From: a bacterium
GTDB taxonomy: Bacteria > JAGOBX01
Reading direction: 5' to 3'
Length of the DNA stretch: 64,000 nucleotides
NCBI GenBank assembly: GCA_029551925.1
Contig: JAKPEO010000121.1
Location: 1-64,000, forward strand
Shown here: positions 2,267-61,732 of the stretch, piece after piece
Layout: the number at the start of each line of letters is the position of its first letter
Position numbering within the stretch: the first letter of the stretch is position 1
The notes under the pieces: model-generated
The model's input: the letters and a program-made list of their open reading frames with translations, nothing else
Database searches by the model: none
What the model was told of the DNA's origin: nothing
Program-made: the position numbers and the translations under genes

Positions 2267-2630
2267 ATTTTTAAAAGGCAAAAAATAAAGAAAAATCATA
2301 TTGCCCAAAGGTTTCCATTATGTAATATCTTCATGTGGAGTGTTGATTTTTCTGAAAGATACGGATTTGATGTGCAGCCATTAGTAGCGACAATGCATCT
2401 AATTAATAAAGTAAATAGTAGAATAAAAAATAATGAGATACCCGGTCTCTCTCAAACTGAATTTTCGCTTTTTATCCCTTCGCTTATTAATTACAAACTT
2501 ATTGAAAAATATGTTGACAAAATTTTGAATATCGCCAACAAAATAAAAAAGATGAATATATAAAAAAATTTGCAAAAGAATTTTATAAAGCAGTAAAATA
2601 TCTAAACTCAATAAAGGCGATTGGGATATA
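2267..2630 (+). pseudogene. Remnant of a type II restriction endonuclease (AlwI-like), internal fragment
   Basis: Codons are readable from about 2267 with no proper start. They give a fragment with FPLCNIFMWSVDFSERYGFD and then LSQTEFSLFIPSLINYK, a pattern I associate with AlwI-family type II endonucleases. The frame ends at 2563. If one shifts frame in the A-rich run near 2550, the protein-like sequence continues as DEYIKKFAKEFYKAVKYLN up to about 2630. It lacks several hundred residues at the N-terminus and joins directly to a truncated DNA methyltransferase, so it is an eroded restriction-modification pair. The AlwI assignment is from memory of the family and should be tested by profile search. 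Confidence 0.5.
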
Positions 2631-3255
2631 ATAGCAGATATTCATAAATTTAACGAAGATTGGATTAAAGAATGTTTGCGCGTTTTATCTGATACTGGCA
2701 CAATTTGGATTAGCGGAACTTTACATAACCACCCGTCAATCGGAGTAATATTAAAAAAAATAGGCGTTTGGATAATTAACGATATAATCTGGTATAAACC
2801 TAATGCTACGTCACTTTTATCGCATAATCGGCTTGCGCCTTGCACTGAATTAATTTGGGGCGCAAGTAAAACCAAAAAATATTTTTTTAATTATGAATTA
2901 GCAAAACAAATGAATAACGGCAAGCAAATGAAAAATCTTTGGATGATTAATGCAGAACGCCATAAAACCAAACATCCAACAGAAAAACCAGAAAAATTAT
3001 TAGAAAGGATTATACTAATAGCAAGTGAAAAAAGGCGATATTGTTTTAGACCCGTTTATGGGCAGCGGCACGACAGGCGCGGTGGCAAAAAGATACGAGC
3101 GTAATTTTATAGGATTTGAATTAAATAAAGAATATTTTGAAATAGCGCAGAAACAGATAAATGAAACTGAAATTATAGATGATTTATTTTCATCAAAATA
3201 TATAAAGCAAACAACAATAACAATAGACAGTTCTAAAATCCCATTTATTTTATAA
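2592..3255 (+). pseudogene. Truncated, frameshifted DNA methyltransferase (M.HinfI-like, beta class)
   Basis: The 5' part reads SKLNKGDWDIIADIHKF, then VLSDTGTIWISGTLHN, WYKPNA, ELIWGA and KHPTEKPEKLLERII. After a one-base frame change in the A run near 3020-3030 it continues as VLDPFMGSGTTGAVA, the SAM-binding motif I of beta-class enzymes. The order (KGDWD, target-recognition part, HPTEKP motif X, then motif I) matches M.HinfI-like adenine methyltransferases. The catalytic motif IV (DPPY/NPPY) and everything upstream are missing, so the gene cannot encode an active enzyme. It runs on from the endonuclease remnant without an intergenic gap, suggesting a deletion that fused the insides of both genes. 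Confidence 0.8.
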
Positions 3256-31712: not shown

Positions 31713-31740
31713 TTGCTTTTTTTATTTTCATTAATATAAT
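31713..31740 (+). promoter_or_regulatory. Predicted promoter of the bS22-like mini-gene
   Basis: TTGCTT (31713-31718) and TATAAT (31735-31740) with a 16-base spacer; the ribosome-binding site GGAGG follows at 31764-31768. Confidence 0.5.
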
Positions 31741-31777
31741 ATCGTCATTTTAATTTTTAAAAAGGAGGCGCAATTTA

Positions 31778-31867
31778 AGGGGAAGTGTTATAAAAAAACG
31801 TAGAAAAAAAATGAAAAAACATAAACACAAAAAATTACGCGATAGATTCAAGCGGAAAAACAAATAA
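31778..31867 (+). CDS. bS22-like (AURKAIP1/COX24 domain) small ribosomal protein; canonical start codon absent
   Basis: The frame reads GSVIKKRRKKMKKHKHKKLR, then DRFKRKNK and TAA. This closely matches the tiny bacterial bS22 / AURKAIP1-COX24 proteins that begin M-G-S-V-I-K-K-R-R-K-x-M. The codon in the methionine position is AGG (31778-31780), not ATG, at the ideal 9-base distance from GGAGG. No in-frame ATG, GTG or TTG lies between the GGAGG and codon 12 (ATG at 31811, leaving only 18 residues). The protein would bind 16S rRNA in the small subunit. A mutation, a non-standard start, or an assembly error could explain it. The gene is too short for standard ORF calling. Confidence 0.65.
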   Translation, partial: RGSVIKKRRKKMKKHKHKKLRDRFKRKNK

Positions 31868-31914
31868 TATTTTTATGGCTGTCTAATATAAAAAATTAGA
31901 CAGCCATAAAAAAA
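31868..31914. repeat. Long inverted repeat between convergent genes
   Basis: ATGGCTGTCTAAT (31875-31887) pairs with ATTAGACAGCCAT (31895-31907), and the flanking T and A runs extend the stem. On either strand the T run is 5' and the A run 3' of the stem, so it lacks the U tract expected of an intrinsic terminator. It nevertheless sits between the bS22-like gene and the convergent helicase gene and may stabilise the ends of both transcripts. Confidence 0.6.
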
Positions 31915-56682: not shown

Positions 56683-58464
56683 TTAAACTAACCAGAAATC
56701 AGCATCGCGATATGCAGGTATTAATTCAATAATCGCCGGCTTGATTTTTTGCAATATATACTGTTTTATTTCACTGACCATAGACATTGCCATTATATCA
56801 TCAGTATATTTTTTTGCTTGTTCATAACTAATACTCGTCAAAATAGTTTTTATATCCGGCAAAACTGACGGATTCATACTAAAATCAGTCAAGCCCATAC
56901 CTAACAATAATATTGCAGTCGTAGGTATCTCTGCCATATCGCCGCAAACTGTCACCGGTTTATTTTGTTTTTTTGCAAGAGTAATTGTTTGATTCAATAA
57001 TTGCAGCACTGCCGGATGCAATCGCTGAAATAAATAATTTACTTTGTCATTTGTTCTATCTACCGCAAGCGTATATTGAATTAAATCATTTGTGCCGATT
57101 GAAATAAAATCTACATATTTAAATATTTTTTCAAGGATTATCACCGCCGCTGGAATTTCAATCATTGCGCCTAACTCTATATTTTTGTTATACGCTATGC
57201 CTTCCTCGTCAAAGGTCATTTGTATTTCTTTTATTAATTCTCTGGTTTTTAAAATTTCAGAAATAAACGCTATCATTGGCAGTAAAATTTTTATATTGCC
57301 AAATGCCGAAGCGCGCAATATTGCGCGCAATTGCGTTTTGAAAATATCGCGGTTTTCTAAACAAAAACGAATAGCACGCAAGCCCAAAAATGGATTTGCT
57401 TCTTTTTCATCAGGAGAATGATGCAATAATATCTTATCTCCGCCTATATCCAATGTTCTTATTACAATAGGCATATTTTTCGGTAATGTTTGTGCGACAT
57501 TTTTATAAATCATGAATTGTTCGTTTTCTGATGGCAATCGTACTTTATCCATAAATAAATATTCTGTCCTAAATAATCCGATGCCTTCAGCGGCATAATT
57601 GATTACATCTTTTGTTTCATAGTCAAACTCTATATTCGCATAAAAATTTATTTTTATATCGTCTAATGTCTTTGTTCTGGTAAGCGAATTAGTTAATATT
57701 ATTTTTTCGCTTTCTATATATTCTATTTGTTTTTCTTGATATTTAGCAATTGTTTCAGGCGTAGGATTTTGAATAATTGTGCCTGTTAACCCATCTATAA
57801 TTAAAGTTTCACCGTCTATTACTTTTGAAACTATATCGTCTGCTTCAATTAGCGCCGGCACTTTTAATGCGCGCGCTAATATCGCAGTATGCGATGTCCG
57901 CCCACCTTTTTCAGTTACAAAACCAACTATATTTTTTTTGGCTATTTGTAAAGTATCAGACGGCAATAAATCTTCAGTTACAAGTATTACTGGCTCGTCA
58001 AAATCTTCTTCTAATGTGTCATATACTTCTGTCAAATTTTGCAATATTCTGCGCCCGACATCATATATATCGCTTGCGCGCTGCCGAATTATTTCGTTGT
58101 CCAGATTCTCAAAACTTTCGCTGATTATTCGCAATACATCATCAAGTATATATTCGCAATTAATTTGTTCAGTCTTAATACGACCTACTACTTCGTTTAT
58201 AAAAAATTGATCTTGTAAAATTAATAAATGAACATCGAATATTTTCGAATTTTCTTCGCCTACCTCTTCTTTTATCTTATTTCGAATCTCTTCTATCTGC
58301 TTATAACTTTTTGCAACTGCATTTTCAAATCTTATTATCTCGTCTGTTACATCTTCCGGTCTTAAATTATATTGACGGATTTTTAAATCGCGATGCTTAA
58401 ATTTTAAAACTTTGCCTATGGCAATACCTAATGATACTGGATTAGCTGTGTGAATAATTTCCAA
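56683..58464 (-). CDS. ptsI: PTS enzyme I (PEP-protein phosphotransferase)
   Basis: The protein has 593 residues. The phospho-histidine lies in TEKGGRTSHTAILARAL. PEP-binding IVIRTLDIGGDKIL, ANPFLGLRAIRFCL, EIGAMIEIPAAVI-like (LGAMIEIPAAVIIL), ISIGTNDLIQYTLAVDRTND and VCGDMAEIPTTAILLLGMG are intact. It autophosphorylates from PEP and passes phosphate to HPr. The start codon is TTG (TTG GAA ATT ATT), preceded by GAGG. It follows ptsH by 6 bases. No sugar-specific membrane EII is in the window. Confidence 0.95.
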   Translation of the reverse strand: MEIIHTANPVSLGIAIGKVLKFKHRDLKIRQYNLRPEDVTDEIIRFENAVAKSYKQIEEIRNKIKEEVGEENSKIFDVHLLILQDQFFINEVVGRIKTEQINCEYILDDVLRIISESFENLDNEIIRQRASDIYDVGRRILQNLTEVYDTLEEDFDEPVILVTEDLLPSDTLQIAKKNIVGFVTEKGGRTSHTAILARALKVPALIEADDIVSKVIDGETLIIDGLTGTIIQNPTPETIAKYQEKQIEYIESEKIILTNSLTRTKTLDDIKINFYANIEFDYETKDVINYAAEGIGLFRTEYLFMDKVRLPSENEQFMIYKNVAQTLPKNMPIVIRTLDIGGDKILLHHSPDEKEANPFLGLRAIRFCLENRDIFKTQLRAILRASAFGNIKILLPMIAFISEILKTRELIKEIQMTFDEEGIAYNKNIELGAMIEIPAAVIILEKIFKYVDFISIGTNDLIQYTLAVDRTNDKVNYLFQRLHPAVLQLLNQTITLAKKQNKPVTVCGDMAEIPTTAILLLGMGLTDFSMNPSVLPDIKTILTSISYEQAKKYTDDIMAMSMVSEIKQYILQKIKPAIIELIPAYRDADFWLV

Positions 58465-58470
58465 AACTTA

Positions 58471-58761
58471 TCATTCCTCGTTAAATTTGCTTTCAAAAAC
58501 TTTCTCTATCGCCGCTAATGCTTCTTCAGCGTCTGGACCTTTCACATAAACTATTATTTTTGAACCGAACGGCGCGGCTAATGTCATTACACTCAAAATA
58601 CTTTTACCGTTCACTTGCAGCCCTTCTTTCTCAAATATTACATCAGAAATATATTGCCCGCAGGTCTTGACTAACAATGCGGCGGGACGCGCATGCATTC
58701 CTAATTTATTCTTTATTTCAAGAGTCTTTGTTAATTCCTTGATTTCACCTTTTAACATCAT
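58471..58761 (-). CDS. ptsH: HPr phosphocarrier
   Basis: The protein has 96 residues. The active-site histidine is H23 (LGMHARPAALLV) and the regulatory serine S54 (VNGKSILSVMTLAAPFGS) is the site used by HPr kinase. Both are intact, so it can act in phosphorelay and in HprK-dependent regulation. It sits between rapZ and ptsI. Confidence 0.95.
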   Translation of the reverse strand: MMLKGEIKELTKTLEIKNKLGMHARPAALLVKTCGQYISDVIFEKEGLQVNGKSILSVMTLAAPFGSKIIVYVKGPDAEEALAAIEKVFESKFNEE

Positions 58762-58779
58762 TTTTTTAACTCCGTTTTT

Positions 58780-59661
58780 TTAATTTTTATTTTTATCACG
58801 ATGTTCAAGTCGCGTTATAATATTTTTACTATTCAAATTTTCAATAAATTCATTTAATAATGATGCTATCATCACAGACCTGTGTTTGCCGCCCGTGCAA
58901 CCTATTCCTATTGTCAAATATGTCTTGCCTTCTTTTACATAATTCGGCAATAAAAATTTTATAAATCCAAAAAATCTATCTAAAAAATCTTTAGAAATCT
59001 GCCAACTTAATATATAATCGCGCACCGGCTGGTCATCGCCAGTCAAATTTACAAGTTCATCTACATAAAAAGGATTAGGCAAAAATCGCACATCTATCAA
59101 TAAATCTACATTATGCGGAATTCCATATTTAAAGCCAAACGATATGATATTTACTGACATCTTATGCGTGTCTTTCTCTAATACATATTTTTCCCATAAT
59201 AATTCTTTAAATTGTTTGTTTGTCAATTTAGATGTGTCTATTATCGTAGTGGCTAATCCTTTAATTTCTTGAAGTAATTGCCGCTCTTTTTTTATAGCAT
59301 TTACCACATTTTTTTTGGAAAGCGGATGCGGACGACGAGTCTCGCTAAATCTTCTGATTAAAGTATCGTCATCAGAATCTAAAAATAAAATATTGTAATC
59401 TATTTCTAAATTATCGAGCAGCAGCAAATTATTAACTATATTTTCAGAAAAATGCTTATCGCGGACATCTATAACGCAAGCGATTTTTTTTATTTCGTTT
59501 CCTGAATTTTTGAATAACTCGCCAAATTTAGGCAGTAAATCAGTCGGTAGATTGTCTACGCAAAAATAACCGCCGTCTTCTAAACATTTAATAGCGAAAC
59601 TTTTACCAGAACCAGACATTCCTGTAATAATCAAAAATTCTGTTTTTTTACGATTCTTCAA
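58780..59661 (-). CDS. rapZ: RapZ-type nucleotide-binding RNase adapter
   Basis: About 293 residues. Walker A LIITGMSGSGKSFAIKCLED, GGYFCVDNLPTDLLPKF, LFLDSDDDTLIRRFSETRRPHPL and the C-terminal TIGIGCTGGKHRSVMIASLL are diagnostic. In enterobacteria RapZ controls glucosamine-6-phosphate synthase RNA; the family also links PTS and cell-wall metabolism. I chose TTG 59661 because it overlaps the hprK stop codon (TTGA) and has AAGG eight bases before; a longer in-frame start at 59682 would overlap hprK further. Confidence 0.9.
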   Translation of the reverse strand: MKNRKKTEFLIITGMSGSGKSFAIKCLEDGGYFCVDNLPTDLLPKFGELFKNSGNEIKKIACVIDVRDKHFSENIVNNLLLLDNLEIDYNILFLDSDDDTLIRRFSETRRPHPLSKKNVVNAIKKERQLLQEIKGLATTIIDTSKLTNKQFKELLWEKYVLEKDTHKMSVNIISFGFKYGIPHNVDLLIDVRFLPNPFYVDELVNLTGDDQPVRDYILSWQISKDFLDRFFGFIKFLLPNYVKEGKTYLTIGIGCTGGKHRSVMIASLLNEFIENLNSKNIITRLEHRDKNKN

Positions 59662-60620
59662 ATTTCGCGACCTTGTATCCAATTTATTAATCTTTTATTG
59701 AATTCTTTCACTGAATAAAATCCCATCTTTTTTGAACGATAGGTCATAGCTGCAACTTCTATTATCGACGCTATATTTCTACCTACACGGACCGGCAAAC
59801 ATAAAGCGCTGACATCAACTCCGAGAAAATTTCGTTTTGTGTCTGTCAAACCAATACGATCGTATTCTTTATTTTTATCCCATTCTTCAATTTCTATAAT
59901 TAAATCAATTTTACTCTCATCCTTTACCGCACCTACTCCGAATAATGTCTTGACATTAATGATACCAATTCCTCTAATTTCTATATGATATTTGATAATC
60001 TCCGCCCCTTGCCCTATTAATTCATTATTATTGTTTTTATAAATTTCAACAACATCATCGGCAATTAGAATATGATTCTTTTTAACAAGTTCTAATGCAC
60101 ATTCGCTTTTACCTATGCCGCTTTTACCTAATAACAAAATTCCTACGCCAAACACTTCGACTAATTCTCCATGTAAAACAATACGCTGGCTCATCTTCAC
60201 TTCTAAAAATGCAATTAATTTTCTTATTATTTCAGATGCTTTAAAAGGCGTCTGTAATAGCGGTGTTTTCGTCTCACGCGCTTTGGCAATCATATAAGCA
60301 GATGGTTCGATTTTTCGAGTAATTATCACTGCTGTATTTTCTTTTTCAAAAAATTCGTTTAGCGCTAAATTACATTCCTCTTCTGTTAAATTTTTTAAAT
60401 ATTCGATTTCTGTCAGGCCTAATACTTGCAAACGATGCAAAGTAAAAAAATTATACCAACCGGCTAATGCTAAACCCGGTCTGCTTATATCTAATGATTC
60501 TATTAGTTTTTTCAAGCCCTCTCTGCCTTCAATCACAGTAAAATCAAAACTCTTTTCTTTAACTAAATCTTCAACAAAAACATTGTTCTTTTTTATTACT
60601 TGATTTATTGGATAACTCAT
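59658..60620 (-). CDS. hprK: HPr kinase/phosphorylase
   Basis: The protein has 320 residues. Walker A is GVGILLLGKSGIGKSECALEL (about residue 160), followed by HILIADDVVEI and the HprK signature RGIGIINVKTLFGVGAV. It phosphorylates and dephosphorylates HPr at the serine, adjusting PTS-dependent regulation. Its ATG overlaps the ptsN stop (ATGA). HprK with RapZ, PtsN and enzyme I in one cluster is typical of diverse Gram-negative lineages. Confidence 0.95.
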   Translation of the reverse strand: MSYPINQVIKKNNVFVEDLVKEKSFDFTVIEGREGLKKLIESLDISRPGLALAGWYNFFTLHRLQVLGLTEIEYLKNLTEEECNLALNEFFEKENTAVIITRKIEPSAYMIAKARETKTPLLQTPFKASEIIRKLIAFLEVKMSQRIVLHGELVEVFGVGILLLGKSGIGKSECALELVKKNHILIADDVVEIYKNNNNELIGQGAEIIKYHIEIRGIGIINVKTLFGVGAVKDESKIDLIIEIEEWDKNKEYDRIGLTDTKRNFLGVDVSALCLPVRVGRNIASIIEVAAMTYRSKKMGFYSVKEFNKRLINWIQGREI

Positions 60621-61090
60621 AAAAATCGTTTGTCCTCGTTTTTCAATATTTCATAAAATTTTTTTGCAGATGTGGCAGACAATAATGAATTTCTAATAAA
60701 ATCTTGTTTCAATATTCGCGATATGCGAGCAAGCATATTGATATGTTCGTTAGGTTCGTCTTCCGGCGATATTAATAAAAATATTAATTTTACCGGCTCT
60801 TCATCAAAACTTTCATAGTCTTCAATGCTTTTTTTGCTTCTGCCTACTGCTAAAATTATTTTATCTGTATGTATAGTTCGACAATGTGGAACGCCTATGC
60901 CTTTACCTATTCCAGTACTGATTATCGCTTCGCGCTCTAAAATAGCTTTTTTTATCTCCTTGACATTAGCAATCAACGAATTTTTTTTCAATAGTTCCAG
61001 TAATTCTGTTATCGCTTCGTTCTTTTTTTCAGCTGCCAAGTTCAAATTAATATTCTCTTTTTGTAATACATCAATTATATTCATAATCAA
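60617..61090 (-). CDS. ptsN: PTS EIIA-like protein, PtsN (nitrogen/fructose) type
   Basis: The protein has 157 residues. The phospho-accepting histidine lies in GIGVPHCRTIHTDKI (H69), and FLLISPEDEPNEHINMLARISRIL is the typical PtsN C-terminal motif. It receives phosphate from HPr and acts as regulator rather than sugar carrier. The start could be TTG (61090) or ATG (61084); the AAGGAG upstream fits the TTG spacing better. Confidence 0.9.
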   Translation of the reverse strand: MIMNIIDVLQKENINLNLAAEKKNEAITELLELLKKNSLIANVKEIKKAILEREAIISTGIGKGIGVPHCRTIHTDKIILAVGRSKKSIEDYESFDEEPVKLIFLLISPEDEPNEHINMLARISRILKQDFIRNSLLSATSAKKFYEILKNEDKRFL

Positions 61091-61147
61091 TTACAGTTTT
61101 CTCCTTTTTTTGAGTTTATTAATTAAATTCATAATTTTAATCAATGA

Positions 61148-61711
61148 CTACATTTCAATTAAACCCAATTTGTTTTTATCGCTTTTTCTATACACTATAC
61201 TTACTCTGCCAGTATTTATATCATTAAATGCATAAAAATTTAATCTATCGGAAGTTAATATACACACGGCTTCTTCTATTGATATGGGTTTTAATAATTC
61301 ATTTGCTTTTACTAATATTTCATAATCATCAACTTTCAAAATATGCTTTTTTTTAGATTTGCGCTCTTCAGTTTTTAATAATTCTTCCATTGTCTTTTCT
61401 TTGGTCTTTTTCGCTAATGTTTTACTATGCTCTTTCATTAATTCGCGCTCTTTTTTTAATGCCGCTTCTAATTTTTCTATCACTGCATTTAATGAATCAG
61501 CCATCTGTTCAGTTGTTTCTTTTGCCGTAATAGTTAAATTTTTACCTAATAATACTACTTCCATTGTATTCAAATTTTTTTGACTTGACAATATAACTTT
61601 TGCTTCAGCAATATTTTCATTATATTTCTGAAGTTTACTTATTTTTTTCTCAATTTTTGACTTGAATTTTTCTGGTACTGTAAAATGTCTGCCTGTAATT
61701 GTAATTTCCAT
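61148..61711 (-). CDS. hpf: Ribosome hibernation promoting factor, long form
   Basis: The protein has 187 residues. The N-terminal domain (EITITGRHFTVPEKFKSKI through ADSLNAVIEKLEAALKKERE) binds the decoding site of idle 30S subunits. A lysine-rich linker and a C-terminal dimerisation domain (IEEAVCILTSDRLNFYAFND, TGRVSIVYRKSDKNKLGLIE) make it the long HPF type that drives 100S dimers. AGGAGG precedes the ATG. It follows lptB with 21 bases between and no rpoN gene between them. Confidence 0.92.
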   Translation of the reverse strand: MEITITGRHFTVPEKFKSKIEKKISKLQKYNENIAEAKVILSSQKNLNTMEVVLLGKNLTITAKETTEQMADSLNAVIEKLEAALKKERELMKEHSKTLAKKTKEKTMEELLKTEERKSKKKHILKVDDYEILVKANELLKPISIEEAVCILTSDRLNFYAFNDINTGRVSIVYRKSDKNKLGLIEM

Positions 61712-61732
61712 AAATAATTCCTCCTAAAAAAT

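Follow-up and report, generated by a model that had tools for sequence, protein, structure and literature searches.

A bS22 ribosomal protein gene that reads AGG at its start position in a bacterial metagenome-type assembly

Within the window, the whole 64 kb stretch of bacterial DNA analysed here, a short frame that is firmly supported as a genuine bS22 gene, bS22 being a protein of the small ribosomal subunit, carries AGG at the position of its start codon. The gene adds a further member to a known family, and any novelty would lie in the start codon alone, if the AGG is real. Our best explanation, held with evenly balanced confidence, is that this is a working bS22 gene whose ATG at 31778-31780 was misread in the consensus. 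The wrong base is the part that we infer: the organism would have a normal ATG at this place, and the G at 31779 would be either a one-base error or the base of a minority strain in the consensus. The 16S rRNA would then pair with AAAGGAGG, the initiator tRNA(CAU) would read the ATG nine bases further on, and the resulting 29-residue basic peptide would bind the h2/h27/h44/h45 pocket of the 30S subunit, as judged from the solved ribosomes of other bacteria.

The identity of the encoded peptide was examined with its natural residues, and it matches both the NCBIfam profile NF047430 ribo_bS22 (E = 9e-7) and the Pfam profile PF08213 COX24_C (E = 2.5e-6), while its family profile matches the bS22 chains in solved ribosomes. 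A sequence-only reading of this DNA had already proposed a bS22 / AURKAIP1-COX24 protein, and the two curated profiles together with the homologues in solved ribosomes bear this out. Against the curated cut-off of 34 bits for NF047430, the peptide reaches 34.3 with M replacing the AGG residue, 28.9 as encoded and 25.9 in the genome search; for PF08213 the gathering cut-off of 23 is passed both unchanged (27.7) and with M (33.4). In an alignment with 46 distinct relatives the invariant residues K6, R8, K16 and K19 are all kept, and of the positions conserved in at least 90% of these relatives R25 alone is changed, to K; the departures lie mainly near the C-terminus, where positions 25/26 are K/R and the relatives mostly have R/H. 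The product is a short basic peptide within the ~29-33 aa class that shares the core G-S-V-x-K-K-R-R-K-K-x-x-K-H-K-x-x-K-L, in agreement with relatives drawn from many families. What the frame lacks is a usable start codon before GSV, where the assembly has AGG, and this deficiency vanishes if the AGG base is an error.

The features of the locus are set out in Table 1. The -10 element is a perfect TATAAT and the -35 element is weak, agreeing with three of six consensus bases, which is the reason that a consensus promoter scan left this promoter below its threshold and unlisted. The sequence-only reading had described TTGCTT-16-TATAAT, GGAGG, an intact coding part and the AGG, and its coordinates proved exact on re-reading, with the qualification that the -35 is weak. 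The Shine-Dalgarno sequence AAAGGAGG is complementary to the 3′ end of the same genome's own 16S rRNA, and AAGGAGG turns up nowhere else in the 64 kb window, whichever strand is read; no other Shine-Dalgarno there is as strong. The whole frame at 31778-31867 on the plus strand reads AGG, GSVIKKRRKKMKKHKHKKLRDRFKRKNK and a stop, the TAA at 31865-31867, and is preceded by an in-frame TAA at 31751-31753. Close to the Shine-Dalgarno the frame offers no standard start codon. Its nearest substitutes are an ATA at codon 5, which a distance of 21 nt separates from the Shine-Dalgarno, and an ATG at codon 12, the latter rejected as a start because the conserved N-terminus would be lost and no Shine-Dalgarno precedes it; no plausible alternative start was found either upstream or downstream of the AGG. 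RNA structure that would mask the start region was not detected (z = 0.3 to 0.5). Behind the gene, the hairpin of Table 1, which precedes the convergent UvrD-like helicase gene, is bordered by T and A runs and is a probable 3′ end or terminator.

Table 1. Features of the bS22 locus in window coordinates
Feature	Position	Strand	Remarks
Promoter, sigma-70-like	31713..31740	+	TTGCTT 31713-31718, 16-nt spacer, TATAAT 31735-31740; read directly
Shine-Dalgarno, AAAGGAGG	31761..31768	+	9 nt ahead of AGG
AGG codon at bS22 start position	31778..31780	+	aligned relatives have ATG, GTG or TTG there
bS22 coding part, GSVIKKRRKKMKKHKHKKLRDRFKRKNK + TAA	31781..31867	+	28 sense codons; NF047430 and PF08213 matches; core K6, R8, K16, K19 kept
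18-pair hairpin between convergent bS22 and UvrD-like genes	31870..31912	.	1 found vs 0.1 expected

Two other regions of the window were also noted. At 2267-3200 a decayed fragment of an AlwI-type restriction endonuclease is followed by an N6/N4 DNA methylase without its N-terminus and with a frame change near the end, together a restriction-modification pseudogene. At 56683-61723 lies a PTS-type regulatory cluster whose consecutive genes are those for a PEP-utilising enzyme I, RapZ, HPr kinase, PTS EIIA and a hibernation factor (S30AE).

The misread ATG is favoured because all but one base of the locus is intact, including the core residues defined by the 46 relatives, the Shine-Dalgarno and the TATAAT. 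AGG is a single step from ATG and two steps from GTG or TTG. The survey of start codons points the same way, since ATG (38), GTG (11) or TTG (5) opens each of the 54 bS22 genes that could be aligned from the first residue, two further variants having their ATG one codon later, and since no AAG, ACG or AGG was found directly before a degenerate bS22 motif in one genome for each of ~85,000 species, a scan whose motif fits 7 of 56 surveyed bS22 genes and so covers part of the family, and which may leave the window's own genome outside. The assembly is of metagenome type, 2.96 Mb in 131 contigs and 86.3% complete, and this fragmentation was counted for an error. Moreover, bS22 is an essential candidate in Borrelia, where a fixed loss of the start would therefore be costly (PMC10618245). 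Against a misread base stands the decayed restriction-modification remnant described above, which indicates that real gene decay does occur in this window. Substitution errors in a consensus are also rare at any one base.

A second bS22 copy was not found elsewhere in the 86.3%-complete assembly, so that the gene is single copy there, and the ATG-bearing homologue elsewhere in the genome that the sequence-only reading had envisaged did not turn up. A comparison with the same locus in the clade, which that reading had proposed, led to a sister genome contig without bS22 beside the UvrD-like orthologue, whose flank carries a response regulator instead; a weak bS22 match in the sister genome was dismissed as chance. 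Named relatives, sought by way of the UvrD-like protein, gave no match. A ribosomal protein cluster, sought near the tRNA-Thr/Tyr/Gly genes of the window's own genome as a source of other starts, was not there.

It is rather unlikely, in our judgment, that the AGG reflects a real and very recent ATG to AGG loss of the start in this strain, with the gene transcribed and hardly translated and the ribosome working without bS22. The distribution of the protein can be read in both directions here, being patchily spread over the phyla (35 of the 386 genomes in a broad sample) and nearly universal in one sampled phylum (37 of 40 genomes). In the one other genome of the same phylum that was examined bS22 was not detected, which together with the response regulator beside the UvrD-like orthologue would suit a loss, as would the frameshifted restriction-modification remnant and the C-terminal K and R (positions 25 and 26), which hint faintly that constraint has relaxed. 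However, the 28 codons, the promoter and the Shine-Dalgarno are otherwise undamaged, so that any loss would need to have happened extremely recently, and the essential candidacy in Borrelia speaks against it as well (PMC10618245).

That the AGG is really used for initiation seems improbable. On this account the very strong Shine-Dalgarno would pin the 30S subunit and the initiator tRNA(CAU) would be accepted despite a mismatch at the middle base, and, by analogy with infC (ATT, ATC, ATA) and sigR (GTC), the peptide, which in excess inhibits translation, might be made at a low and possibly self-limiting rate. Free bS22 has been found to inhibit cell-free translation (PMC10085706), which would give a reason to restrain its synthesis, and the Borrelia gene uses GUG (PMC10618245). 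Extended Shine-Dalgarno motifs, as seen here, accompany the conserved non-canonical starts of infC and ccpN (PMC13009471) and the GTC of sigR (PMC5472188). Weak starts are also common in bS22: outside an ATG-rich phylum, the one in which 37 of 40 genomes have bS22, GTG or TTG was counted in 13 of 24 genes as opposed to none of 38 bL36 genes (30 from a broad sample, 8 from genomes that carry bS22; Fisher p = 3e-7, with phylogenetically uncorrected sampling). Yet this weak-start tendency is lineage-specific, since in the ATG-rich phylum non-ATG starts, all GTG, make up 3 of 30. When pooled, the 16 of 54 non-ATG starts lie above bL36 (p = 1e-4) and not clearly above the general 20% non-ATG share (p = 0.06), both comparisons being phylogenetically uncorrected. 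GTG and TTG bS22 genes occur in many unrelated families, often behind a strong Shine-Dalgarno, and bL36 in a comparable sample always has ATG.

A relaxed selection of the start codon would be helped by the absence of the IF3 C-terminal domain (PF00707), which was not found in the 86%-complete assembly, but IF3 may simply be encoded in the 14% that the assembly lacks. The search for bL36 (PF00444) in the same assembly was negative too, and both could be either sequence absent from an incomplete assembly or a real absence. Of all start-codon mismatches, one at the middle base should be among those tolerated least. The starts of the infC and sigR type keep the middle U and are tested, whereas AGG mismatches precisely this base, and the same non-canonical start, which in such cases is kept in relatives, is not kept here, the 54 aligned genes including no close relative that carries bS22. 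The ~85,000-species scan, which returned no AAG, ACG or AGG start, likewise argues against it. Furthermore, a ribosomal protein needs near-stoichiometric synthesis, and AUU and AUA starts give ~10-30% of AUG (PMC13009471). We rate a working AGG start below an error or a very recent loss, and the full scenario, in which bS22 would be truly translated from AGG by means of a maximal Shine-Dalgarno and possibly a relaxed or absent IF3, the poor start balancing a peptide harmful in excess with ribosome assembly, is more improbable still.

The genetic code of the organism is unaltered and AGG is a rare arginine codon here (17 of 18,258 codons counted in the window), because an ordinary tRNA-Arg(CCU) is present in the genome, next to an initiator tRNA with the CAU anticodon, and because, when the UvrD-like gene is aligned to its sister-genome orthologue, an AGG in either of the two stands opposite Arg in the other in seven of nine cases, and never opposite Met. 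A reassignment of AGG to Met in this lineage, to which its rarity and the precedent in one clade of uncultivated Bacilli (PMC8629427) might lend some appeal, is therefore almost certainly wrong and was rejected on the grounds of this arginine-type tRNA, this alignment and the use of ATG 322 times in the window. Altogether, of the three possibilities left by the sequence-only reading, namely loss, an unusual start and an error, the choice has been narrowed by the single copy, the normal code and the failure to find AAG, ACG or AGG starts.

If the base is an error, as we prefer to think, one unannotated bS22 gene is added in a sparsely sampled phylum, and the case illustrates how such genes escape annotation. 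If the AGG were real and used, a gene for a bacterial ribosomal protein would naturally start with AGG, and this would tie start-codon strength to the dosage of bS22. In either event, the preference of bS22 for GTG or TTG in many lineages, as against the exclusive ATG of bL36 in our sample, makes the idea of a controlled bS22 dosage testable.

Compared with the known members of NF047430 from mycobacteria, Cutibacterium and Borrelia, the peptide is alike in its length of ~29-33 residues, its high basicity, its GSVIKKRRK(K/R)M core and its KHK motif, and differs in having AGG for ATG, GTG or TTG and KR for RH at the C-terminus. The C-terminal domain of mitochondrial mS38 / AURKAIP1 / COX24 proteins is the same profile domain (PF08213), but these proteins are longer and bear it at their C-terminus, unlike the peptide of the window. 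The closest parallel in circumstance is bb0822, the bS22 gene of Borrelia burgdorferi, which was missed by annotation and found through structure (PMC10618245); both genes are unannotated and non-ATG, yet the GUG of bb0822 is a standard alternative start and the AGG of the window is not. With infC and the sigR gene of Streptomyces the gene shares a strong Shine-Dalgarno before a weak start, and these offer a model for regulated low initiation, but whereas their starts are conserved and tested, the AGG of the window stands as one isolated, unconfirmed case.
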